DNA of 64,000 nucleotides from Magnetospirillum moscoviense (GTDB lineage: Bacteria; Pseudomonadota; Alphaproteobacteria; Rhodospirillales; Magnetospirillaceae): the NCBI RefSeq assembly GCF_001650635.1, contig NZ_LWQU01000141.1:62001-126000 (forward strand), given 5' to 3'. Shown in pieces: positions 2 through 51,351 of this stretch. Positions within the stretch are counted from its first letter, which is position 1. Every line of letters starts with the position of its first letter. The translations under genes and the position numbers were made by a program. Below the pieces are notes generated by a model. That model did no database searches. It worked only from the letters and a program-made list of their open reading frames with translations, and was not told the DNA's origin.

Positions 2-1263
<1,262 letters not shown>

Positions 1264-1894: not shown

Positions 1895-4800
1895 CTAACA
1901 GAAGTCGCGCGAGCGCGGCACCAGCAGGCCCAGCGCCCCGGTCATGTCCAGGATGGTCTTGGCGACGACGTGGACCACCGGGCCTTCGCGCTGGATGGTG
2001 CCGTCGATGCGCAGCAATCGCCCGGTCAGCACCGCCTTGCGCGCCGCCTCGAACATTGTCGGCCACACCACGATGTTGGCGATGCCGCTTTCATCTTCCA
2101 GCGTCAGGAAGATCACGCCGCTGGCGGTGCCGGGGCGCTGGCGCACCAGCACCAGGCCGGCCACGGCGATGCGCCCACCCTGACGCCGGGCCAGATCGGC
2201 CGCCGGCCTGACGCCGGCACTATCCAGGTTGGGGCGCAGCAGGGCCAACGGATGCGCCTTCAGCGACAGGCGCAGGCTGGCGTAATCGTGCACCACCTCT
2301 TCGCCCAATCCCATGGTCGGCAGGCTGACCGCCGGCTCACGGGACGGTGCCGCCGCCAGTGCCGCCAGCAGCGGCGGCGGCGGCGCGGTCAGGGCCTTGG
2401 CCTGCCACAGGGCGTCGCGGCGCGACAGCTTCAGCGAGCCGAAGGCGTCGGCGCGGGCCAGGCGTTCCAGTTCGGGCCGGGTCAGGCCGGTGCGGGCGAC
2501 CAGATCGGCAAACGAGCCATAGGGCCGCCTTGCCGCCAGGCGCCGGCCGCCGGCCTGGGGCAATCCGTCGATCTGGCGAAGGCCCAGCCGCAGGGCCAGG
2601 CCACCGCCCTTCCGTTCTTCCAGGCGATTGTCCCAGTCGCTGGCCGAGACATCGACCGAGCGGACCTCGATGCCGTGATCCTGGGCGTCGCGCACGATCT
2701 GGGCCGGGGCGTAGAACCCCATCGGCTGGCTGTTGAGCAGGGCGCAGGCGAACGCCGCCGGGTGATGGCATTTCAGCCAGGCCGAGACATAGACCAGATG
2801 GGCGAAGCTGGCGGCGTGGGATTCCGGGAAGCCGTATTCGGCGAAGCCCTCGATCTGGCGAAACACCCGCTCGGCGAATTCGTCGGTATAGCCGCGTTCC
2901 CGCATGCCGGTGATCAGCTTGTCACGGAAGCGCCCGACCTGGCCGGTGCGACAGAAGGCGGCCATCGAGCGGCGCAATTGGTCGGCCTCGGCCGGGGTGA
3001 AGCCGGCGGCGACGATGGCGATCTGCATCACCTGTTCCTGGAACAAAGGCACCCCCAGGGTCTTGCCCAGCACCCGTTCCAGCTCGGGCGAGGGGTACTC
3101 GACCTTTTCCAAGCCCTGACGGCGGCGCAGATAGGGGTGGACCATGTCGCCCTGGATCGGGCCGGGCCGCACGATCGCCACCTCGATGACCAGATCATAG
3201 AAACAGCGGGGTTTCAGACGCGGCAGCATGGTCATCTGAGCCCGGCTTTCCACCTGGAACACCCCGATGGAATCGGCCCTGCCCAGCATGTCGTAAACGG
3301 CGGGGTCTTCGCGCGGCACGGTGGCGAGGTCGATCTCGATGCCGCAATGGTCGGCCAGCAGGGCGAAGGCCTTGCGGATGCAGGTCAGCATGCCAAGGGC
3401 CAGCACATCGACCTTGACCATGCCCAGGGTGTCCAGATCGTCCTTGTCCCATTCGATCACGGTGCGCCCGTCCATGCGGGCGTTCTCGATGGGAACCAGC
3501 TCGTCCAGGCGGTGGCGCGACACCACGAAGCCGCCGACATGCTGCGACAGATGGCGGGGAAAGCCGGTCAGCTGGGCGGCCAGGTCCAGCACCCGGGCCA
3601 GGGCGGGCGAGTCCGGGTCCAGCCCCAGCTCGCGCACGCGGGCCGGGTCGATCGGTTTCGAGGAATAGCCCGAACTGGTCTTGGCCAGGGCGGCGACACT
3701 GTCGTCGGACAGGCCCAGGGCGCGGCCGACCTCGCGCACCGCCGAGCGGGCGCGGTAATGGATCACCGTCGCGGTCAGGCCGGCGCGGTCGCGGCCGTGA
3801 CGGGCATAGATGTGCTGGATCACCTCTTCCCGGCGTTCATGCTCGAAATCGACATCGATGTCGGGCGGCTCGCCCCGCTCGGCCGAGATGAAACGCTCGA
3901 ACAAGAGGTCGAAGACGGCCGGATCGACATTGGTGATGCCCAGGCAGAAACACACCGCCGAATTGGCCGCCGAGCCCCGGCCCTGGCACAGGATGCCCTG
4001 CTGGCGGGCGAAGCGGACGATGCCCTCGACGGTCAGGAAATAGGGGGCGAAGCCCAACTGGCCGATCAGCGCCATCTCGTGGGCCAGGGCGGCCTGGACC
4101 TTGGCCGGGATGCCGGTCGGATAACGCTGTGCCGCCCCCGCCGCGACCAGGCGCGCCAAGCGCTGGTGCGGGGTCTGGCCGTCGCCTTCCTCCTCGTCGG
4201 GATATTCATAGCGCAACTGGTCCAGCGAGAAACGGCACAGAAGGGCGATGTCGGCGGTCCGGGTGATGGCGTCGGGGTGGCGGGCGAACAGGCGGGCCAT
4301 TTCCTCGGGCGGCTTCAGATGGCGCTCGGCATGGGCGGCCAGGGCCCAGCCGGCGGCAGTGATGGTGGTGCCCAGGCGGATACAGGTCAGCACGTCGAGC
4401 AGCGGCCGGCGTTCGGGGACATGCATCAGCACATCGTTGGTGGCGACCAAGGGCGTGGCGCATTGGCCGGCCAGTTCATCAAGGTCAGCCAGGCGGGCGC
4501 GGTCGCGATCGTCGAAGCGGCGGCTGGCGGCCAGGAACACCCGGCCGGGCCGGTCGCGGCCCCAGGCCGCCAGTTCGGCGGCGAAATCAGCATCGGGATC
4601 GGGGGGCGGCAGGGCGATCAAAACCTGGCCGTCGGCATGGTCGGCCAACTCGGCGCGGGTGAAGGCGCAAGACCCCTTGTCGGCGCGCCTGCGCCCCAGG
4701 GTCAACAGCCGGGTCAGCCGGCCCCAGGCGGCGCGGTCGGTGGGCAGGCACAGCATGGCCATGCCGTCGGTGGGTTCAAGCCGGGCACCGGGCAGAAGGC

Positions 4801-4981
4801 GGATGCCGGCTTGGCGGGCCGCCCCGTGGGCGCGCACGATGCCGGCCACCGAATTGCGGTCGGTGACCGCCAGCGCCGACAGCCCCAGGGCGGCGGCGGC
4901 ACTGGCCAATTCGTCGGGATGCGAGGCGCCGTGCAGGAAGCTGTAATTGCTGGTGACCTGCAGCTCGCAATACTGGGTCAT
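1895..4981 (-). CDS. dnaE2: error-prone DNA polymerase DnaE2
   Basis: This is a C-family polymerase for SOS-induced translesion synthesis and mutagenesis, working with ImuA and ImuB. It is 1028 residues, the usual DnaE2 length. The N terminus has a PHP domain (YCELQVTSNYSFLHGASHP at residues 3-21). The palm aspartates are present in PDIDVDFEHERRE, and VIEVAIVRPGPIQG and LFQEQVMQIA follow. A C-terminal OB-fold segment (GVIFLTLEDESGIANIVVW) is also present. I chose ATG 4981 because homology starts at MTQYCELQ; the open frame runs on upstream but those codons overlap imuB out of frame. No good ribosome-binding site precedes the ATG; instead a perfect hairpin abuts it. It is the last gene of the LexA-controlled cassette. 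Confidence 0.95.
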   Translation of the reverse strand: MTQYCELQVTSNYSFLHGASHPDELASAAAALGLSALAVTDRNSVAGIVRAHGAARQAGIRLLPGARLEPTDGMAMLCLPTDRAAWGRLTRLLTLGRRRADKGSCAFTRAELADHADGQVLIALPPPDPDADFAAELAAWGRDRPGRVFLAASRRFDDRDRARLADLDELAGQCATPLVATNDVLMHVPERRPLLDVLTCIRLGTTITAAGWALAAHAERHLKPPEEMARLFARHPDAITRTADIALLCRFSLDQLRYEYPDEEEGDGQTPHQRLARLVAAGAAQRYPTGIPAKVQAALAHEMALIGQLGFAPYFLTVEGIVRFARQQGILCQGRGSAANSAVCFCLGITNVDPAVFDLLFERFISAERGEPPDIDVDFEHERREEVIQHIYARHGRDRAGLTATVIHYRARSAVREVGRALGLSDDSVAALAKTSSGYSSKPIDPARVRELGLDPDSPALARVLDLAAQLTGFPRHLSQHVGGFVVSRHRLDELVPIENARMDGRTVIEWDKDDLDTLGMVKVDVLALGMLTCIRKAFALLADHCGIEIDLATVPREDPAVYDMLGRADSIGVFQVESRAQMTMLPRLKPRCFYDLVIEVAIVRPGPIQGDMVHPYLRRRQGLEKVEYPSPELERVLGKTLGVPLFQEQVMQIAIVAAGFTPAEADQLRRSMAAFCRTGQVGRFRDKLITGMRERGYTDEFAERVFRQIEGFAEYGFPESHAASFAHLVYVSAWLKCHHPAAFACALLNSQPMGFYAPAQIVRDAQDHGIEVRSVDVSASDWDNRLEERKGGGLALRLGLRQIDGLPQAGGRRLAARRPYGSFADLVARTGLTRPELERLARADAFGSLKLSRRDALWQAKALTAPPPPLLAALAAAPSREPAVSLPTMGLGEEVVHDYASLRLSLKAHPLALLRPNLDSAGVRPAADLARRQGGRIAVAGLVLVRQRPGTASGVIFLTLEDESGIANIVVWPTMFEAARKAVLTGRLLRIDGTIQREGPVVHVVAKTILDMTGALGLLVPRSRDFC

Positions 4982-38549: not shown

Positions 38550-38689
38550 GCGGGCTTGCGAGTCCAGGCCGGGCCAGCCATACATCCAAGGTGACTAAGC
38601 GTTCTACCTGATTGCCGTCAGGGACGAAAATTCTTAAACTCGCCTGCGGTTGGGGTGGGCGAAAAAGTGCTCTCGCAGGGGAGGATCTC

Positions 38690-39121
38690 ATGTCGTTCGC
38701 AGCCATTCCCGTCCGCCTTTCCCTCGAGGAAAGCAGCGCCGTCGCCCTGCTGGAAGCCGCCGAGGAATTGTCCACCGCACACGATGCGGAACGCTTTGTC
38801 GCCGCCTTGGACACCAATCATCGGGTGTGGATGGCGCTGTCGGATGTCGCCCGGCGGTCGGCCTGGAAGGTGTTCGAACGCAGGCTGGCCGATTTCGTGA
38901 TGACCACCACCTGCAAGGCCGGCAAGGGCGTGCGCGACGACGACGTGGAAACGCTGATCGGGATCAACCGTGACCTTTCGTCGCGCTTGGCCAACGGGCG
39001 TGATCTCGGTGCGATCCGGCTCCGCGCCCATTTGGCCTGGCAAGAGGGCGGCAAGGGTCGCGGATTGTCGCTGGATCGCTGGCTGATCGCCGAGATGGAA
39101 CGCAAGGCGCAGGCGCACTAA
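38690..39121 (+). CDS. FlaF-like protein
   Basis: This 143-residue cytoplasmic protein resembles FlaF, the flagellin synthesis and secretion regulator of alphaproteobacteria. The similarity lies in ALDTNHRVWMALSDVARRSA and ETLIGINRDLSSRLANGRDL, which parallel the A-L-x-x-N-x-x-[VL]-W-x-A-L and L-I-x-I-N-R signatures. The N terminus (IPVRLSLEESSAVALLEAAE) and C-terminal tail differ from classic FlaF, and no flagellin gene is nearby. AGGGGAGG lies five bases before ATG 38690. It is divergent from the ribbon-helix-helix gene and shares its operator region. Treat the name as tentative. Confidence 0.55.
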   Translation: MSFAAIPVRLSLEESSAVALLEAAEELSTAHDAERFVAALDTNHRVWMALSDVARRSAWKVFERRLADFVMTTTCKAGKGVRDDDVETLIGINRDLSSRLANGRDLGAIRLRAHLAWQEGGKGRGLSLDRWLIAEMERKAQAH

Positions 39122-39499: not shown

Positions 39500-39838
39500 C
39501 TAGGCCGGGGGCATGGCGGCGACGGCGGTCGCGCGGTCGGGATGAATCTGCAAGATCTTGGCGAAGCCCGAGACATCGAAGATTTCGCGGATATGCGGCT
39601 TCATCGAGCACAGGGCGAACTTGCGCGGTGCGCGGGTCATCTTGGCGCCCACCAGCACGACGCGCAGGCCGGCGCTGGAAATGTAATCCATTTCGGCGAA
39701 ATCGATCAGGATGCGCGGTGCGCCGGAATTGACCACCGCCACCACCTTGGCTTCGAAGGCCTTGGCCGTGGCGCTGTCGACACGGGCGATGGGAACCAGC
39801 ACCGTCAGGCCTTCGCTCACTTCTTCCCTGATTTCCAT
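39500..39838 (-). CDS. STAS-domain anti-sigma factor antagonist
   Basis: This 112-residue protein of the SpoIIAA/RsbV type acts in partner switching. When unphosphorylated it binds an anti-sigma-like ATPase, and a SpoIIE phosphatase reactivates it. The core is RILIDFAEMDYISSAGLRVV, with the phosphorylatable serine in the I-S-S-A-G-L motif (about residue 56). The gene starts four bases after the stop of the SpoIIE/HATPase fusion, which contains both the kinase-like and phosphatase domains expected to act on it. It is the last gene of the six-gene cluster. Confidence 0.92.
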   Translation of the reverse strand: MEIREEVSEGLTVLVPIARVDSATAKAFEAKVVAVVNSGAPRILIDFAEMDYISSAGLRVVLVGAKMTRAPRKFALCSMKPHIREIFDVSGFAKILQIHPDRATAVAAMPPA

Positions 39839-39842
39839 AATC

Positions 39843-42770
39843 TCAACTCTCCTGTTCCGCGGTACCCTTCCACAGGGTCACGACGTTGCGCCCGTCTTCG
39901 CGGCGATACTCGGTTTTATCCATAAACTCCTTCACCAGGAAGACCCCCAGCCCGCCGATCGGGCGGTCGTCCACCTCCAGGGCCAGGTCCGGCTCGGGGG
40001 CTTCGGTGAAGGGATTGTATTCAGCCCCGTCATCGATGATTTCGGTCATCAGCGTCCCGTTGACTAGCACGAACCGGACATGAATGTCGTGATGCTGATC
40101 ATCTGAATACCCATAGGATATGATATTGGTGATCAGTTCATCCAGGCAAAGATTCAGGTTGAAGGCGATCCGTTCGGGCATCCCGTGCCGCTCGACGAAG
40201 GAATCGACCAGCCCGGCCAGGCGTTCCAACTCGGCCAGATCGTTGCTGATGGCCACCTTCAAGACATTGTGATCGTGGTGTTGCAGGGGCGTCGCGGCAA
40301 CAGGTGCCGGGGCCGGGGCCGGGGCCGGGGCGGGCGGCGGCGGCGCGGCCGCGACGATCTTCGGCTTGTTGATGATGCGGATGGCCGGCTTGGCCGCGGG
40401 TTGGGGCGCCGGCTCGGGCTTCTTGATGGCGACCGTTACCGGGGGTTTGGGTTTGGCCACGATCGTCGGCCGGATCACCTTCACCGCCGGGGCGGCTGCG
40501 GCGGCCGGCTGCGAAGCCGGGGGCGGGGCCGGAGTGGGCGCGGGGGGCGGCGCGACGGGCGGCGGGGCGGCATCCATATTCATGACCTCGACCGACGGGG
40601 TGGCCTTGAATCCTGTCAGCATCAACCGGCGATCCGGTTCATCGAACGCTTCCAGGTCGGTGCTGACCCGATCGAAGCTCAAGGACAGCATGGTGATATC
40701 GTCGAATTGCGGCGCTTCGCCGACGAAGGCTTCGACCGCGCGGTGCACCTCGGCGATGATGTCCTGCGGGGCATATCCCCCCAGGGTTCCCAGCTTCTCG
40801 ATCAGGCGAGGTTCGTCGTAAAGGGCCGAGACGACGTCCTGGGCTTCGGTGACGCCATCGGTATAAAGCAAGATGGTGTCGCCGGGGTTCAATTGGAAGG
40901 TACCGGTTTCGTAATCCAGCCCTTCCATCACGCCCAAGGCGACGCCCGAGACATCGCGGATGGCATCGACCTCGCCGCTGGTGCGCAGGATCAAGGACGG
41001 CGGATGGCCGGCATTGCAATAGGCCACCTGGCCGTCACGGGTGTCGAGCACCGCATAGAAGCAGGTGGCGAACAAGGTGTGCGGGTTGTCGGCCGACAAC
41101 ATGGTGTTGACGAAGGCCAGGCACTCGCCGGGGCTGGACGACAACGGCGCCACCGCCTTGATCAGCGAGCGCGCGATCGAGATGAACATCGCCGCCGGGA
41201 CGCCTTTGCCCGAGGCGTCGCCGATGACGAAGCCCAAATGATAGCGGTCGATCAGGAAGAAATCGTAGAAGTCGCCGCCGACCTCCTTGGCCGGGACCAT
41301 GCCGGCATGAATGCGGAACTCGTCGCGGTCGGGGAAGGGCGGGAACACCTGGGGCAGCGACGACAATTGCAGTTCGCGGGCGAAATCCAGTTCCTGGCGC
41401 AGCGCGTCCAACTGTTCGCGGGTCCGCAAGGCTTCGCGCAGCACTTCGGCCTCGCGGGTCCGTTGGGTGATCAGTTCTTGCAACGACAAATGCTGTTCGC
41501 GGATGCGGTCCGACATGGTCTGGAAGGCCACGCCCAGCACTTCCAGTTCGCCCTTGCCGGAATCGGTGTCGCCGGATTCTTCGGGGCCGCGCTCGGCCAT
41601 GGCCTCGATCTGCTTGAGGTCGGCCAGCACGGCGGCGCGGGCCTCTTCCTCCAGCATTTCGCTCATCTTCAGCATCTGCAGGCGGATATACAGTTCCTGG
41701 CGGCGGCGCTGACGTTCGCGGCGCTGCTGCATCAGTTCCAGCTTGACGACATTGTCGCGGAACACGCCGACGGTGCCGGCGATGCGGCCGATCTCGTCCT
41801 GGTCGTTCTTGACCTCAAGCGTGACCGAGGTGTCGCCGCGCGACAGCGCGTTCAGCACGGCGATGGCCTCGTCCAGCGGGTGGAAGGAACGGCGCAGATA
41901 GACGGTGAACAGCGCCAGCAGCACCACCAGGAAGCCGCCGACCGAGCCGATGGCGATCTGGCGGATCTGGCGCTGGCGGGTTTGGGTGGCGGTGACGTCG
42001 CGGGCGGTGACCAGGGCGCCGATCACCCGGGATGCGCCGTCATAGACCGGCAATACGGCGACCGAATAGAAGATTTCGCCCTGCTGCCAGGTTTCCAGCC
42101 GTGATTTACGGACGGAAATCTTGCCTTCGAAGATTTTCCAGATGGAATCGTCGGTCCCCAGTGACAATTGGCCGATACGGTCGACCAGGAAGATTTCAGA
42201 GCCGGTCGAAATCTTGAATTCGGCCAGGGGCGGTTGCATGTCGGCGGCCAGCACGGCGACGCCGATCACCTCGCCCTTGTGCTCGATCGGGAAGGCCAGG
42301 GTGGCTGTGAAGGTGCGCGACGCGTCTTGCAGCACACCGCGCACCGATTTGTTGGAATCGACGATGGTCCGGACGGTGCCGGCATCGACCGTCGGCGGTT
42401 CCAGCAGCGAACCGCGCGAATTGTACAAAAGCTCGCCGTCGCGGTTCATCACTTCGAAGCGGCTGACCTGGCCGCGGGCCCGCATGCCGTCGGCGATCGG
42501 CACCGCCAGGGCCAGGATTTGCGTGGGGTCGCGCTTTTCCACCGCCTGGACCAGGGATTCGTCGGTGGCGACGGCGCGGGCATCGGTTTCCAGCCGCTGC
42601 ACGGTGTTTTCCACCAGCTTGCGCCAGAAGATGTCCTGTCCGTTCAGCGTCGCCTGGGCATAGCGTTCGTCGGCCAGTTCCTCGCTCTTGATGGCGGCGA
42701 AGGTCAGGCCGGCCACCAGCAGCGAAAAGCTGACCGTGACGATCAGGGTTACGCGTGTCCGCAGCAGCAT
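39843..42770 (-). CDS. membrane SpoIIE phosphatase fused to RsbW-like ATPase
   Basis: This is a 975-residue hybrid switch protein. Helix 1 (residues 6-27), a periplasmic sensor of about 240 residues with Cache-like FEVMNRDGELLYNSRGSLL, helix 2 (about 277-297), a HAMP domain and a coiled coil come first. A PP2C/SpoIIE domain follows (about 470-700), with EVGGDFYDFFLID, ASGKGVPAAMFISIARSL and the metal-ligand motif DDITMLSL. Then come a long Pro/Ala linker (about 730-835) and a C-terminal GHKL/HATPase domain (NLCLDELITNIISYGYS; GGLGVFLVKEFMD). It could both phosphorylate and dephosphorylate the adjacent STAS protein. It overlaps the formyltransferase gene by 22 bases. Confidence 0.92.
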   Translation of the reverse strand: MLLRTRVTLIVTVSFSLLVAGLTFAAIKSEELADERYAQATLNGQDIFWRKLVENTVQRLETDARAVATDESLVQAVEKRDPTQILALAVPIADGMRARGQVSRFEVMNRDGELLYNSRGSLLEPPTVDAGTVRTIVDSNKSVRGVLQDASRTFTATLAFPIEHKGEVIGVAVLAADMQPPLAEFKISTGSEIFLVDRIGQLSLGTDDSIWKIFEGKISVRKSRLETWQQGEIFYSVAVLPVYDGASRVIGALVTARDVTATQTRQRQIRQIAIGSVGGFLVVLLALFTVYLRRSFHPLDEAIAVLNALSRGDTSVTLEVKNDQDEIGRIAGTVGVFRDNVVKLELMQQRRERQRRRQELYIRLQMLKMSEMLEEEARAAVLADLKQIEAMAERGPEESGDTDSGKGELEVLGVAFQTMSDRIREQHLSLQELITQRTREAEVLREALRTREQLDALRQELDFARELQLSSLPQVFPPFPDRDEFRIHAGMVPAKEVGGDFYDFFLIDRYHLGFVIGDASGKGVPAAMFISIARSLIKAVAPLSSSPGECLAFVNTMLSADNPHTLFATCFYAVLDTRDGQVAYCNAGHPPSLILRTSGEVDAIRDVSGVALGVMEGLDYETGTFQLNPGDTILLYTDGVTEAQDVVSALYDEPRLIEKLGTLGGYAPQDIIAEVHRAVEAFVGEAPQFDDITMLSLSFDRVSTDLEAFDEPDRRLMLTGFKATPSVEVMNMDAAPPPVAPPPAPTPAPPPASQPAAAAAPAVKVIRPTIVAKPKPPVTVAIKKPEPAPQPAAKPAIRIINKPKIVAAAPPPPAPAPAPAPAPVAATPLQHHDHNVLKVAISNDLAELERLAGLVDSFVERHGMPERIAFNLNLCLDELITNIISYGYSDDQHHDIHVRFVLVNGTLMTEIIDDGAEYNPFTEAPEPDLALEVDDRPIGGLGVFLVKEFMDKTEYRREDGRNVVTLWKGTAEQES

Positions 42771-43654
42771 GACGCCCCCACTCCTTTGGCCGCGGTATGG
42801 GCGAGATGGTCGATGCGGGCGTGCAGCGCCTCGGGGACGAAGCTGCGCAGCTCCTCTAGGTAGTCCGCAGGATCGTAGATACGAAAGCCCTTGGCGGCGA
42901 AGTCCTTGAACGAGTCGGCGCCCGGCAGCGACCCATAGACCCGCTGGCTGCGATCCTGCTCGGTCAGGGCCGGCTGGCGCCCCTCACGCAGGCCATCCAG
43001 CACCTGGAAGAACAGCTCGAGGCCGGGTCGGTAGGTCTGGGTCACATGCCACAACAACGAACGCGCCGGATTGATGTCGATCCAGCCGATGCCGGCGATC
43101 GGGCCGGTGTCGATGCCGCGATCGACCTGGTGCAAGGTGCAGCCGATGCGCTTGCCCCCTTCCAACATGCAGCGGAACGGCGCGAACAGTCCGGCATAGC
43201 GCGGAAGCGCGCCGGGGTGGACGTTATAGGTGCCGAGCGGTGGGATTTCGAAGATGTTCGGCTTGAAGATCAACGAGAACCGCGCCGACAAGATGATGTC
43301 GGGGGCGAAGGCGCGCACCAGCGACTCGCCGTCCTCGCCGTTGATATCGGCGACCACCTGGATCGGGATTCCGTAGCGCCGGGCCAGTCCGTCGAAGGTG
43401 GCGTGGTGGCACGTATCGTCACCGGTGGCGTCGATCAGCGGGAAGATGGTGTCGATCGGCAGGTCGCGTTCGAGGAACTTGATCTCGGCCAGCTCGGGAA
43501 CGGCGTTCTCGACCGGGCGGGTCTTGTCGGACAGCAGCACCATCACCTGGTCGCCGACCAGATGCGACAGGACCTGGTTCAGCACCATGGCCCCGGCCAA
43601 GTCGCGTTTGGTGCACACCAGGATGCGCAATGCCTTCTTGGGCGGCGCGGTCAT
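42749..43654 (-). CDS. formyltransferase-like protein
   Basis: This 301-residue protein has a 10-formyltetrahydrofolate-dependent formyltransferase core: LGTYNVHPGALPRYAG (N-x-H catalytic pair), then CTLHQVDRGIDTGPIAGIG (catalytic Asp). It is shorter than, and diverged from, methionyl-tRNA formyltransferase, so a sugar or small-molecule amine substrate is more likely. The C terminus ends GASCCCGHA, an unusual cysteine run that could bind metal. ATG 43654 overlaps the stop of the binding-protein gene (ATGA). Its place within a signalling operon is unexpected. Confidence 0.8.
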   Translation of the reverse strand: MTAPPKKALRILVCTKRDLAGAMVLNQVLSHLVGDQVMVLLSDKTRPVENAVPELAEIKFLERDLPIDTIFPLIDATGDDTCHHATFDGLARRYGIPIQVVADINGEDGESLVRAFAPDIILSARFSLIFKPNIFEIPPLGTYNVHPGALPRYAGLFAPFRCMLEGGKRIGCTLHQVDRGIDTGPIAGIGWIDINPARSLLWHVTQTYRPGLELFFQVLDGLREGRQPALTEQDRSQRVYGSLPGADSFKDFAAKGFRIYDPADYLEELRSFVPEALHARIDHLAHTAAKGVGASCCCGHA

Positions 43655-44682
43655 GGCTTGCCCCCCGGCCCGTCGATCACCTCGGCCAGGCTCAGCAGGT
43701 TCATCGGCGGATAGACCCCCAGCGCCCGCACCACCGGCATGTTCAAGATGATCGACAGCCGCTTGGGCGCGTCGATGGCGATGTCCTGGGGCGGCTTGTT
43801 GTGAACCAGGATCTGCTCGGCCTTGTAGGCGGTCAGCTGGCCGACGGTGTAATAGCGATAGACCCCGCCGATCAGCGCCTTCGAGGTCACCACCGGATTC
43901 TCGGCCGCCGCGAAGGTCGGCAATTGCTGGTCCAGCGCCGCCTGGGTCAGGATGTCGCGGTTGACGTTCAAGAAGGTGTCCGGCGGGATGTACAGGAACC
44001 CCACGCCGGATTCCTTCAGGCTGGCGACCTTGCCGGGGATGCTGGCCGCCACCGGCTTGCCCTCGACCACATCGACCGGGGCGACGATGACCTCGAAATC
44101 CTGGGCGGTGCCCAGCTCGCGCAATTCGTCGATCGCCACCAGCGAGTTGCGCTCCAGCGGGTTGTAGACCATGCCCAGGCGCTTGACCGGCAGGTACGAC
44201 CTGAGCAGGTTCACCTGGGTTTCCATCGGCACCAGGTACGAGGTGCCGGTGATGTTGCGGCCCGACGAAAGCAGGTTGGGCACCACCTTGGCGCCGACCG
44301 GCTGCGAGACGATGGCGAACACCGCCGGGATGTCGGTGATGTGCTTGGCCGGATCGACCTTGTCGAAGGTCCCCAGCATCTCCTGGGTGACGGTGGTGCC
44401 CCAGGTGAACACCAGGTCGACCTTCATCTCCTTTGCCTCGGCGACGAAGCCGGGCAACTTGCTCTTGTCCTGGGCGCAGTCGCGGATGATCAGCTCGACC
44501 GGGATGCCCTGGTTGGTGAAATAGTCCTTGAAGCCTTGCGCGGCCTCTTCCCAGCCACGGAACAGCGCCATGTAGATGCGGTAGGGCCGGGGCGGCTTGG
44601 CCGGCTGCGCGGCCAGCCCCGAAGGCCAGGCCGCCACGGCCCCCAATCCCCCCAGTCCGGCCAGAAAATCGCGGCGGATCAT
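43651..44682 (-). CDS. periplasmic ABC-type substrate-binding protein
   Basis: This 343-residue secreted binding protein is of the uncharacterised ABC_sub_bind (TrpX-like) type. The N-terminal MIRRDFLAGLGGLGAVAAWP looks like a twin-arginine-style or Sec signal ending A-L-A-A/Q-P-A. The mature protein contains GYNIT-like and family blocks such as VFTWGTTVTQEMLGTFDKV and MPVVRALGVYPPMNLLSLAE. No permease or ATPase gene lies in the cluster, so it may present its ligand to a membrane sensor rather than to a transporter. ATG 44682 overlaps the upstream MFS gene stop (ATGA). Confidence 0.87.
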   Translation of the reverse strand: MIRRDFLAGLGGLGAVAAWPSGLAAQPAKPPRPYRIYMALFRGWEEAAQGFKDYFTNQGIPVELIIRDCAQDKSKLPGFVAEAKEMKVDLVFTWGTTVTQEMLGTFDKVDPAKHITDIPAVFAIVSQPVGAKVVPNLLSSGRNITGTSYLVPMETQVNLLRSYLPVKRLGMVYNPLERNSLVAIDELRELGTAQDFEVIVAPVDVVEGKPVAASIPGKVASLKESGVGFLYIPPDTFLNVNRDILTQAALDQQLPTFAAAENPVVTSKALIGGVYRYYTVGQLTAYKAEQILVHNKPPQDIAIDAPKRLSIILNMPVVRALGVYPPMNLLSLAEVIDGPGGKP

Positions 44683-46775
44683 TCGCCATCCTCCTCGGCA
44701 ACGAGATGCAGGCCGCTGCCGAAGGCGAACGAGCACACCACGAAGATCACCGACAACACCAGCACCACCCCGCCCAGCGCGACCACCGCCCCGGTCAGGC
44801 CCCAGATCGGAATGAAGGCCGCCGCTAAAACCGGCCCGACGATCGAGCCCAGGCGTTCCACGGTGCGGACCAGGGCCAGGACCCGGGTGCGCCCGAAGGT
44901 GTGGCATTCGATCCAGCACAGGTCGGGCACCAGCGCCAATTGCGGCGAGGCCGACAGGCCGTGCGACACCCCCAGGGCGATGATGGCCAGGGCGACCGCC
45001 ATCGACGGTTCCAGGCCCAGTTGCGGCAGCGGCAGCAAAAGGCCCAGGCCGCCGATCAGGCCGCCGATGGCCACCAGCCCGGTACGCCAGCCGGTCAGGT
45101 CCGAGATCCGCGCCGACACCGCCGACAAGATGGCCATGATCAGCGGATACAAGACGATGGTCCGGCCGATCTCGGGCAGCGACATCTCGGCGCGCCACAA
45201 GATCACCGGAACCAGGAAGAACAAAAAGCCGGTCAAGGCCATCTTGGCCGGCACCGCCGCGAACAGCAAAAGCGCGGTGAAGCGCCAGTTGGCGAACAGG
45301 CTGAACAACGACTTGTCGCTGGCCGAGCCGTCGCCGTCGTCGGCGGCCTTACCGCCCTCGGCGCCGGGATCGAGCAGGCGGTGGACCAGCCAGCCGGAAA
45401 TCGCCGCCAGCACCGCCGAAACGACGAAGGTGGCGTCGAAGCCGACCCGTTCGGCCAGCACGCCGCCCATGGCGGTGCCGCAGATCGACGCGGTCAGCAC
45501 GGCGCCGACATAGATGCCCAGGCCCTGGGCCCGCTTGCCTTCCAAGGTGGCGCGCGAGATGTAGGTCTGGCAGGCGACGGTGACCAGGGCGTAACCCAGG
45601 CCCGAGACGATACGCAACACGATCAGCTGAACCACCGAATCGGCGAAGGCGGTCAGGAAATAGCCGCCCGCCGCCGGGATCAGACCGGTCAGGAACACCC
45701 GGCGAGTCCCCAGCCGGGCGATCACCGAGCCGGCCCAGGGCGAGGCCACGGTGATGCCGACCATGAACATGGTGATGGGCAGGGCCATCAGCATTTCCGT
45801 GGTGAACAGGCCGGTGCTCTGGCCGAATTCGCGGGCATAGAGCGGCATGAAGGCGCGGCCCATCTCTTCTGCGAAGACGAACAGGAACAGCGGCAGGCGG
45901 ATGTCGGTGGCCAGGCGTTCGCGCAATACCGCCGGTCGGCCGGATTCGGCGAAGCGATAGAGGAACTTGACGCGGTCGGCGATCTCGGCCACCCGCTCGA
46001 CCACGCTTTTGTCGAAATGGGCGGCACGCACCTCGTCGATATAGGCCATCAAGCTGCGGTACTGGTCGTCGGCGCGGCGGATGGTGGTCGATAAGGTGCG
46101 GACGAAATGTCCGACCTCGTCGCCCGACAGGCCCCCGGCCACATGCGAGAAATCGCCGCGCCGCGCGCGATCGACCACCAGTCCGACCAGCTTCATCGGG
46201 CCGGTGACGTTGAAGAACACCACGAACAGCAAGATCTCGAAGGCGACGATCAGCGAGGCCACCAAGACCACGGCGATGTCGTAGAAGATATCGGACAGCC
46301 GGCTGGCGATATAGCCCTGGTCGAAGCCGACATGGACGGCGGCGACCCGCTCGCCCTTCGACTGGACCGGCAGCGCCAGGTCCAGGAAGTCGCCGATGGT
46401 CAGGTTGGTGGCCTGCCCGGCCTCGCGGTAATGGGGTTCAAGGTCGGCCGACGGGGCGCCGGTGACGAACAGCACCCTTCCGTCGGGGGCCGAGATCGCC
46501 AGGTAGCGCAGTTCCGGATTGGCCATCAGCACCGGGCGGAAGAATTCATCGACCCCCACCAGATGGTCGATCGGAATCCCCAGCTCGACGGCGCGTTCGA
46601 CCTGGGCGGTGATGTCGCGCCCGATGGCGGCGGCCTTCTTGTCCAGTTCCGGGACCATGCCGCGTTCGAACTCGCCCAGCGCGCGGAAGGTGATCATCGC
46701 CACCGGAGGCACCAGGATCAGGATCGCCAGGACGAACAGGCGGACCAGCAGGGGTCGTGAGCGGTCGAGTCTCAT
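44679..46775 (-). CDS. sensor-HAMP-MFS transporter fusion
   Basis: This 698-residue protein has an unusual order of parts. A first helix (about 11-31), a roughly 130-residue periplasmic sensor (RYLAISAPDGRVLFVTGAPS), a second helix (about 163-190) and a HAMP-like segment (TGPMKLVGLVVDRARRGDF) lead into a 12-helix major facilitator domain (about 285-690: LPLFLFVFAEEMGRAFMPLY; GSVIARLGTRRVFLTGLIPA). Sensory input may thus gate a transporter, or the MFS part may itself sense. I chose ATG 46775; the open frame upstream overlaps the 260-residue sensor gene out of frame. Confidence 0.88.
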   Translation of the reverse strand: MRLDRSRPLLVRLFVLAILILVPPVAMITFRALGEFERGMVPELDKKAAAIGRDITAQVERAVELGIPIDHLVGVDEFFRPVLMANPELRYLAISAPDGRVLFVTGAPSADLEPHYREAGQATNLTIGDFLDLALPVQSKGERVAAVHVGFDQGYIASRLSDIFYDIAVVLVASLIVAFEILLFVVFFNVTGPMKLVGLVVDRARRGDFSHVAGGLSGDEVGHFVRTLSTTIRRADDQYRSLMAYIDEVRAAHFDKSVVERVAEIADRVKFLYRFAESGRPAVLRERLATDIRLPLFLFVFAEEMGRAFMPLYAREFGQSTGLFTTEMLMALPITMFMVGITVASPWAGSVIARLGTRRVFLTGLIPAAGGYFLTAFADSVVQLIVLRIVSGLGYALVTVACQTYISRATLEGKRAQGLGIYVGAVLTASICGTAMGGVLAERVGFDATFVVSAVLAAISGWLVHRLLDPGAEGGKAADDGDGSASDKSLFSLFANWRFTALLLFAAVPAKMALTGFLFFLVPVILWRAEMSLPEIGRTIVLYPLIMAILSAVSARISDLTGWRTGLVAIGGLIGGLGLLLPLPQLGLEPSMAVALAIIALGVSHGLSASPQLALVPDLCWIECHTFGRTRVLALVRTVERLGSIVGPVLAAAFIPIWGLTGAVVALGGVVLVLSVIFVVCSFAFGSGLHLVAEEDGE

Positions 46776-46782
46776 CGGGGCC

Positions 46783-47565
46783 TCACGCCAATCGATCCAG
46801 CCGTTCGACCTCTTGGGTCGATTCGGCGATGTGTTCCACGGCCTCGCGCGTCTTGGCGACGAATTCGGCATAGCGGCTTTCGAAGCCGCCCTCGTCGGTC
46901 GGGTCGGGCTCGGCGTCGCCGCCTTCGGCCAGCACCGTGGCCAAGGTGCGCTCCATCGCGCGAAGGCGTCGGCCGACCGATCCCAGCACGACATAGGACG
47001 CAACCAGGGCGATCACCGAGAACAGGCCCAGGGCGGCCAGCAGCTCGACGGCGACGCGGCTGAGCAGCGGGCCCAGTTCGCGGTCGATGAAGGCCGACGG
47101 GAAGCGCAGCACCACGGCGCCTTCGACCTTGCCCAGATTGTTGACCAGCGGCAGTCCGACCAACTGCATGTCGTCATCCATCAGCGAGAAGGGCTGGCTG
47201 GATGGCTGGGCCAGCGGCTCCAGCCACTTGGCCGGCACGCTGACGCCGATGCCGCCGCGATCGGTGTTGAACAGCACCTCGCCCCGCGCGTCGTAAATCT
47301 CGATGCCCAGGATCTGGTCGTCGCGGACCTTCTCGAGTTCGATGGTTTCCTGGATTTGGCGCAATTGGCGCAGGGCCAGGCCCAGGTTCAGGCGGTCCTC
47401 GATGTTCTTCTTGATGGTGAAGACGACGAAGCTGTAGCGCGACCGGACCAGCGAGGACAACACATCCTCGAATTTGTAATAGCCGAACACCGCGGTCAGC
47501 AGCCCTGTGCATAACAGGATGGCCACCAATGCCGCCGAAACCTTCCGGGCGAGAGACCACGACAT
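46783..47565 (-). CDS. membrane sensor protein with periplasmic domain
   Basis: This 260-residue protein has an N-terminal helix (VSAALVAILLCTGLLTAVFG), a periplasmic region of about 130 residues resembling a Cache sensor (IEIYDARGEVLFNTDRGGIG; GLPLVNNLGKVEGAVVLRFP), a second helix (VELLAALGLFSVIALVASYV) and a short HAMP-like/coiled-coil cytoplasmic tail. It has no kinase, cyclase or methyl-accepting output domain, so it must signal through a partner. It opens the six-gene leftward cluster and is followed seven bases later by the MFS fusion, whose N-terminal sensor it resembles. Confidence 0.85.
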   Translation of the reverse strand: MSWSLARKVSAALVAILLCTGLLTAVFGYYKFEDVLSSLVRSRYSFVVFTIKKNIEDRLNLGLALRQLRQIQETIELEKVRDDQILGIEIYDARGEVLFNTDRGGIGVSVPAKWLEPLAQPSSQPFSLMDDDMQLVGLPLVNNLGKVEGAVVLRFPSAFIDRELGPLLSRVAVELLAALGLFSVIALVASYVVLGSVGRRLRAMERTLATVLAEGGDAEPDPTDEGGFESRYAEFVAKTREAVEHIAESTQEVERLDRLA

Positions 47566-50649: not shown

Positions 50650-51351
50650 CTATTCCGGCAGGGCGAAGGCCATGACGGTTCTCCGGCCGCCCCGGCGGAT
50701 CGCCAGATCCTGGCAGCAGGCGCGAATCATCGCCAAGCCATTGCCGCCGCCGGCCGACAAGACGATGTCGCGGGGCGCGACCGGGGTGAAGCCGCGTCCG
50801 CAATCATCGACCCAGATCACCATCCGGCCGCCGCAGGTCACGGCTCCGACCGTCACCGGGCGGAACGCGTAGGCCGGATCGGCGGTTCGGCGTTCCATCT
50901 CGGCGGCGAACTCGACCAACCCCTCCAGGTTACCGCGCTGGGCGGTCTTCAGGTCCAGGTTGCCGTGCAGGACGGCGTTGCCGATGGCTTCCTGCAGGGC
51001 CATGGCGATCTTGCCCTCGACCGGGGCCAGGCCAGGCTGACGGCAGATCACCGCCTTGGTGAAGGCGCTGGCGCCGTCGATCTTCAAGGCGGTGCGGGTG
51101 GAAAGCCGCCACACCAGCACGTCGGGGCGCATGGGCATGGCGTGCCGCGCCGACAGGCAGGCGACGTCCAGCGCCGCTGATATCGGGTTTGCCAGAAGCG
51201 CGTCGAAGTCGGCGTTGTCGCCGTCGAACAAGGCGACCCTGAGGGCGCCGCGCCGCGCCGAGGTCAGCCTGGACAAGGATTGCCGCGCCACCTCGCACGC
51301 GGCGGCGGGAACGCCGCAGGCGATCAGTTCGATGGAGGGTGGCGAGGCCAT
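50650..51351 (-). CDS. anti-sigma-type HATPase protein
   Basis: This 233-residue cytoplasmic protein has a C-terminal GHKL ATPase domain of the RsbW/SpoIIAB kind: MALQEAIGNAVLHGNLDLKT (N box, about residue 116), VIWVDDCGRGFTPV (G1) and GGGNGLAMIRACC (G2). The N-terminal roughly 100 residues are not recognised and may be a receiver-like or binding domain. It follows a STAS gene by four bases, so it is the likely kinase or binding partner in a second partner-switching module, placed behind a chemoreceptor. Confidence 0.88.
   Translation of the reverse strand: MASPPSIELIACGVPAAACEVARQSLSRLTSARRGALRVALFDGDNADFDALLANPISAALDVACLSARHAMPMRPDVLVWRLSTRTALKIDGASAFTKAVICRQPGLAPVEGKIAMALQEAIGNAVLHGNLDLKTAQRGNLEGLVEFAAEMERRTADPAYAFRPVTVGAVTCGGRMVIWVDDCGRGFTPVAPRDIVLSAGGGNGLAMIRACCQDLAIRRGGRRTVMAFALPE

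Follow-up and report, generated by a model that had tools for sequence, protein, structure and literature searches.

A six-gene cluster of Magnetospirillum moscoviense encodes a predicted signaling module with a transporter-less binding protein, a Cache-HAMP-MFS fusion and a partner switch

The window analyzed here, a 64,000-nucleotide stretch of the Magnetospirillum moscoviense genome, contains a cluster of six ORFs on the minus strand at 39500-47565 (Table 1). An earlier note, made from the sequence alone, had described six leftward genes with gaps of 7 and 4 bases or overlaps of 4, 4 and 22 bases, and an ORF check reproduced this description exactly to the base. The six-gene arrangement is not due to chance, and in comparisons with two relatives the dN/dS values of all six genes were below 1 (0.14-0.51, values that are approximate because the synonymous sites are fairly diverged). 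None of the six proteins matched a PADLOC model of anti-phage defense, which ruled out a defense reading of the cluster. Two other genes in the window lie close by. Past the end of the STAS gene there is a FlaF-like protein at 38612-39121 (+), whose Pfam score of 23.2 is slightly under the cut-off of 23.6, and at 50650-51351 (-) there is a second small RsbW-like HATPase (PF13581, E 1.8e-7), a relative of which is found in L077 at 3321-3755, beside a SpoIIE-like gene at 4169-4906.

Table 1. Genes and domains of the cluster, listed from S1 to the STAS gene
Feature	Residues	Position in window	Strand	Basis	Spacing (bases)
S1, membrane protein, 260 aa		46783..47565	-	ORF; no Pfam match	
Cache-HAMP-MFS fusion (P0002), 698 aa		44679..46775	-	Pfam MFS_1, 6.5e-34	gap 7 to S1
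P0002, Cache-like domain	~40-152			model	
P0002, HAMP region	~206-272			model	
P0002, 12-TM MFS	~290-682			model	
Periplasmic binding protein (P0003)		43651..44682	-	PF04392 ABC_sub_bind, 1.5e-28	overlap 4 with Cache-HAMP-MFS gene
Formyltransferase-like enzyme		42749..43654	-	PF00551 Formyl_trans_N, 1.1e-15	overlap 4 with binding-protein gene
dCache-HAMP-SpoIIE-HATPase fusion (P0005), 975 aa		39843..42770	-	Pfam SpoIIE PF07228, 1.4e-49; HATPase_c_2 PF13581, 7e-25; HAMP; dCache_3	overlap 22 with formyltransferase gene
P0005, SpoIIE domain	511-699	about 40674-41240	-	Pfam	
P0005, HATPase domain (RsbW-like)	842-967	about 39870-40247	-	Pfam	
STAS-only protein		39500..39838	-	PF01740, 1.4e-12	gap 4 to SpoIIE-HATPase gene

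The AlphaFold model of S1 (20-row alignment, pLDDT 84) has two TM helices flanking one periplasmic Cache/PAS-like domain, and matches the sensor domains of WalK, CitA, DctB and the amino-acid chemoreceptor Tlp3 at Z 13-16. Judged by this model, S1 is a Cache-fold periplasmic sensor with no cytoplasmic output domain, in line with the membrane sensor lacking an output domain that the earlier note had proposed. In the model of P0002 (pLDDT 85), a TM helix, a Cache-like domain, a second TM helix and a HAMP region precede a 12-TM MFS half; the Cache fold was assigned from the secondary structure of the model, in which the alpha/beta domain follows the Cache order. The two proteins are joined in a single polypeptide of ~855 aa in L165/L166 and in three further loci. 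The closest folds to the MFS half are VMAT1/2, MdfA and NorA, which all export amines or drugs in a proton-coupled manner; this modeled likeness is one of fold only and names no substrate. The MFS half has the fold and motifs B and C of DHA1-type H+ antiporters: in the alignment of relatives the motif B Arg is invariant, the motif C-like GG is kept and an acidic residue in TM1 is nearly invariant. Transport may nevertheless be lost, because the motif A Asp is not conserved, being Ala in P0002 and D in some rows only.

The binding protein P0003 has an N-terminal RR signal peptide, its relatives also carry signal peptides, and its relatives in the PDB are 6hni, 3lkv and 3lft. Its score against the NCBIfam TrpX model (NF041285) was 91.1 bits, far below the cut-off of 390, and by this score it is not of the TrpX type. 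The gene is the only PF04392 gene in the M. moscoviense genome. The claim that neither a permease nor an ATPase lies near it holds across its relatives: searching 89 binding-protein loci with an HMM of BPD_transp_2 permeases gave no match, none of the PF02653 matches listed is near the module, and ABC ATPase signatures were present in four of the 89 loci, in none of them adjacent. The possibility of an orphaned ABC importer was ruled out by these results. Where the MFS gene is absent, the binding protein adjoins a Cache hybrid kinase (L113) or a Cache-SpoIIE protein and a receiver (L093). In a Magnetovibrio MAG (L083, 7-7222), TfuA, YcaO and radical-SAM-like genes come after a PF04392 relative, in what looks like a RiPP-type peptide cluster.

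The catalytic motifs of the last two proteins are intact in alignments of their relatives. The PP2C metal-binding aspartates of the P0005 SpoIIE domain (D500, D638, D690 and D691) are conserved in an alignment of 22 rows, as are the residues of the HATPase N box and G boxes (E878, N882, D913 and GGLG 939-942) in its relatives. The candidate phosphoacceptors of the STAS protein, S54/S55, lie within an ISSAGL motif, with SSAG in 17 of 18 rows and SSVG in the remaining one, and this protein scored 57.9 bits against TIGR00377, above the cut-off of 53.45 (anti-sigma-factor-antagonist type). At the level of sequence motifs, the SpoIIE-HATPase and STAS proteins thus have the tested defining features of SpoIIE/RsbU - RsbW - STAS partner switching, as had been suggested for them. 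The further suggestion that the output of the switch lies outside the operon is borne out by the lack of a downstream output gene within it. No sigma-factor gene was found next to the STAS gene in the window, ruling out an adjoining sigma-factor target; in another locus, L104, an ECF sigma gene follows the binding protein. The M. moscoviense genome has several further places with HATPase_c_2 matches above the cut-off. An amine-binding motif has been described in dCache domains (PMC10104139).

About 20 Magnetospirillaceae genomes retain the complete six-gene order next to murI, namely S1 / Cache-HAMP-MFS / PF04392 binding protein / formyltransferase / Cache-HAMP-SpoIIE-HATPase / STAS; further loci of this family are interrupted by contig ends. 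Six genomes of the Paramagnetospirillum group (L072, L073, L074, L077, L080 and L081) are missing the formyltransferase only, one genome (L071/L091) has a broken copy of it, and another Magnetospirillaceae genome (G016; L111, 4641-5513) has a triad-intact formyltransferase beside murI with the rest of the module absent. In L106, also from this family, the STAS gene is grouped with GGDEF and GGDEF-EAL genes. The genes had been read as a single system, and they are indeed kept together in the family, with neither dispersal nor a conserved ABC partner being found. The inclusion of the formyltransferase stands only in part, since its presence in about 20 genomes is set against its loss, breakage or replacement in others. 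Because the six-gene order is kept while the formyltransferase varies, gene conservation supports a single system with the enzyme as an optional part; absent from several genomes, broken in one and solitary in another, the formyltransferase is not essential to the rest. M. aberrantis (G003) has a second, divergent module in addition to the orthologous one (L094, 1-17000), with RraA-like and 2-hydroxyacid-dehydrogenase-like neighbors.

The solved structure nearest to the formyltransferase is the ArnA formyltransferase domain, and its catalytic triad of N144, H146 and D182 (N-x-H ... D) is invariant in all full-length copies. Its best score against the curated formyltransferase equivalogs was 60 bits, versus a cut-off of 316, and against Fmt it was 51 versus 201. 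These scores, far below the cut-offs, ruled out Fmt, ArnA and PurN, and by sequence score the enzyme falls outside every named formyltransferase family, the sugar N-formyltransferases included. The slot beside the binding protein, occupied by the formyltransferase in Magnetospirillaceae, holds a diverged-type GNAT in 16 loci (called from weak Pfam matches for three members and from a profile of five members for the rest), a canonical-type GNAT in L096, L144 and L151, a PanB-like protein in L098, L146 and L148 and a pair of ATP-grasp proteins in L154. A formyltransferase is also found upstream in L145 and downstream in L152, and the gammaproteobacterial type VI loci have no slot enzyme. Mapping the enzyme labels onto the tree of 44 binding proteins took 11 changes, as compared with a mean of 25.1 for shuffled labels; no value this low occurred in 200 shuffles. 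The PanB type and the canonical GNAT (GNAT2) type each form one clade, with three members from three families apiece. Because the enzyme type follows the binding-protein tree, the binding protein and enzyme seem to travel together as a cassette. Linked genes are co-inherited, so linkage alone could contribute to this agreement, which by itself is no proof of a shared ligand.

The acyl-transferring enzymes and the resemblance of the MFS half to drug and amine efflux carriers might both be accounted for by a toxic compound from outside, such as an amine or antibiotic, which the enzyme inactivates by acylation and the MFS protein pumps out while the switch triggers a stress response. Amines are commonly detoxified by GNAT or formyl transfer, which would fit such a role. 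However, detoxification is not typical of PanB-like and ATP-grasp enzymes and the enzyme-free core persists inside type VI operons, and we regard detoxification as an unlikely purpose.

Outside the Magnetospirillaceae, S1, the Cache-HAMP-MFS protein and the binding protein recur as a core in over 20 Pseudomonadota families, with Vibrio among the bacteria that carry it. In a survey that sampled genomes, the Cache-HAMP-MFS profile (A1) matched 22 of 289 genomes at class level, 9 of 398 at phylum level and 8 of 198 in one gammaproteobacterial order, and tblastn found relatives in Azospirillum and in one Vibrio plasmid record. Full-length Cache-HAMP-MFS copies on long enough contigs adjoin S1 and the PF04392 binding protein. 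SpoIIE, HATPase and STAS genes are found with roughly half of the core loci. The idea of the six genes as one unit therefore applies within the family, but the most conserved part is this core and not the partner switch. Four loci (L159-L162) with a peripheral MFS subfamily and weak binding-protein matches were not counted as core, and in G876 (L180, L182) the related MFS proteins lack the adjacent pair. A second arm, consisting of S1', a Cache-HAMP protein with a degenerate MFS-like domain and SpoIIE, is present in L104, L152, L153, L154, L156 and L167 and partly present in L149/L150.

These paralogs with degenerate MFS-like domains, the motif A aspartate missing from many rows and the dispensability of the enzyme are what would be expected of a receptor-only complex, in which the MFS protein no longer transports and instead acts as a receptor or scaffold in the membrane, the enzyme being a metabolic bystander. 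We consider such a complex quite unlikely, given the retention of the motif B arginine, the motif C-like glycines and the TM1 acidic residue, and the tracking of binding-protein clades by enzyme type. A further assumption, that the MFS half, regulated by the switch, is a new SBP-dependent secondary importer for the ligand of the binding protein, appears very improbable to us: the two proteins are nearly always paired and there is no ABC partner, but the MFS half is like exporters and unlike importers, and its fusion to Cache and HAMP argues for signaling.

In several lineages the core is embedded in type VI secretion operons that have no SpoIIE. The genes of L163, L164 and Vibrio sp. THAF190c (L168) run S1 - MFS - binding protein - VgrG - ... 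- PAAR - ... - TssA - Hcp - TssB - TssC. In L165, L166, L177, L178 and L179, the fused S1-MFS protein and the binding protein have ClpV on one side and, on the other, a family-3 binding protein, Fha and TssJ, K, L and M; the order in L181 is similar, with no PF04392 gene detected. The family-3 solute-binding protein (SBP_bac_3) between the PF04392 protein and Fha is at 6281-7006 in L165, with equivalents in L166, L177-L179 and L181. One alphaproteobacterium (L148/L185) has a complete PanB-type module and SpoIIE, then ClpV, Hcp, VgrG and TssB-TssC. The two gammaproteobacterial placements fall in separate parts of the binding-protein tree and, by that tree, the placement of the module inside or beside type VI clusters has at least two origins, with the count of cases dominated by one gammaproteobacterial order. 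Type III secretion genes lie beside the module in two loci from two families of the order: YscI, YscJ and CesT in L104 (16979-19814), where STAS and HATPase genes are directly 5' of the CesT-like chaperone gene, and YscU, the SctN ATPase, a FliP-type protein and YscK in L114 (8350-16177). TssC was not found in the M. moscoviense genome, ruling out a type VI output in Magnetospirillum itself, and therefore the output of the module here is something else. Two loci that are linked to type VI genes and belong to different classes have similar receiver-domain proteins encoded upstream of the module (L151, 826-2400; L168, 7202-8764).

Secretion systems are density-dependent weapons in many bacteria, and the placement of modules within their clusters raises the possibility of a self-made, quorum-sensing-like signal, for which the enzyme would carry out the last synthesis step, the MFS half would be the exporter, the binding protein and Cache domains would sense and the switch would respond. 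The exporter type of the MFS half and the swapping of enzyme types, together with the binding protein, on a fixed receptor-exporter chassis would suit such a signal. Many modules are without an enzyme at the locus, however, no precursor pathway is encoded at this one, and a lone group-transfer enzyme may merely modify an outside molecule, making a self-made signal somewhat unlikely in our estimation. We are rather doubtful about the broader proposal of a family of self-contained chemical communication systems, in which a fixed chassis (binding protein, Cache protein and Cache-gated MFS) carries an exchangeable synthase cassette that sets the signal chemistry, and in which the outputs vary. If it were true, the copy in the window would be the formyl-signal version, and the outputs would be the partner switch, c-di-GMP enzymes and type VI and type III secretion.

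We prefer to read the genes as one conserved signaling module, in which the ligand of the binding protein is read by the Cache proteins and the switch acts on STAS, and we judge this reading reasonably likely. What the module senses is probably a small molecule outside the cell. The PF04392 binding protein, with no ABC importer to feed, would pick up this molecule and, by docking, present it to S1, the Cache-HAMP-MFS protein and the Cache-HAMP-SpoIIE-HATPase protein; ligand delivery to the sensor domains had been put forward in the earlier note and is plausible from the gene arrangement. The ligand state would then shift the balance between SpoIIE phosphatase and HATPase kinase, the STAS serine (S54/S55) would be dephosphorylated or phosphorylated, and STAS would bind or release a partner encoded elsewhere. 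The local enzyme may edit the molecule read by the binding protein, most simply, in the case of the formyltransferase, by adding a formyl group to an amine. The exporter-type (DHA1-like) MFS half, gated by its own Cache-HAMP, may move the molecule out or act as a receptor.

Parts of this scheme have counterparts in known systems. LuxP-LuxQ and TorT-TorS each combine a transporter-less periplasmic binding protein with a membrane sensor that has a periplasmic domain and HAMP. The module is like them, by adjacency and co-conservation only, in having a transporter-less binding protein beside membrane sensors, but it has the PF04392 family and Cache sensors, and in place of a histidine kinase it has an MFS carrier and SpoIIE-HATPase as outputs. 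In the SiaA-SiaB-SiaC-SiaD system of Pseudomonas aeruginosa, a membrane HAMP-PP2C phosphatase controls a STAS-like protein. A HAMP-PP2C membrane phosphatase with STAS is common to both, and module locus L106 has the GGDEF-linked STAS variant; however, P0005 scored 73.4 bits against the SiaA model (NF038263) versus a cut-off of 700, and to our knowledge Sia has no binding protein, MFS or enzyme. SypE has a receiver domain between its kinase and phosphatase domains, and no receiver domain was found in P0005 using Pfam. In Vibrio fischeri, SypE acts on the STAS protein SypA as both serine kinase and serine phosphatase, and BtrU/V/W partner switching controls type III secretion in Bordetella (PMC8256260). 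As far as its genes go, the module resembles SypE-SypA, BtrU/V/W and RsbU/V/W in having a kinase/phosphatase switch on STAS. Unlike SypE, its dual protein is a dCache-HAMP membrane receptor, and unlike all three systems it is associated with a binding protein and an enzyme as well as with a second Cache protein and a Cache-HAMP-MFS fusion. The ammonium sensor/transducer is a transporter-histidine kinase fusion (PMC5764959); like it and CbrA, the module fuses a transporter domain to signaling domains, although here Cache-HAMP precedes an exporter-type MFS and there is no kinase domain in the same protein. By analogy, the module most likely works like binding-protein-assisted sensing joined to a SypE/SypA-style switch.

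Partner switches and binding-protein sensors are already known. What is apparently undescribed is an MFS carrier gated by Cache-HAMP whose gene is accompanied by those of a binding protein lacking a transporter and of an exchangeable small-molecule enzyme; a literature search, conducted outside most subscription journals, found no paper describing this gene combination. A term search of a 2023 review of type VI regulation (PMC10482370) turned up no MFS, PP2C, anti-sigma or substrate-binding regulators. The enzyme types are direct clues to the ligand, and the copies in type VI operons, in Vibrio among others, suggest an unrecognized way in which bacteria time the use of these weapons.
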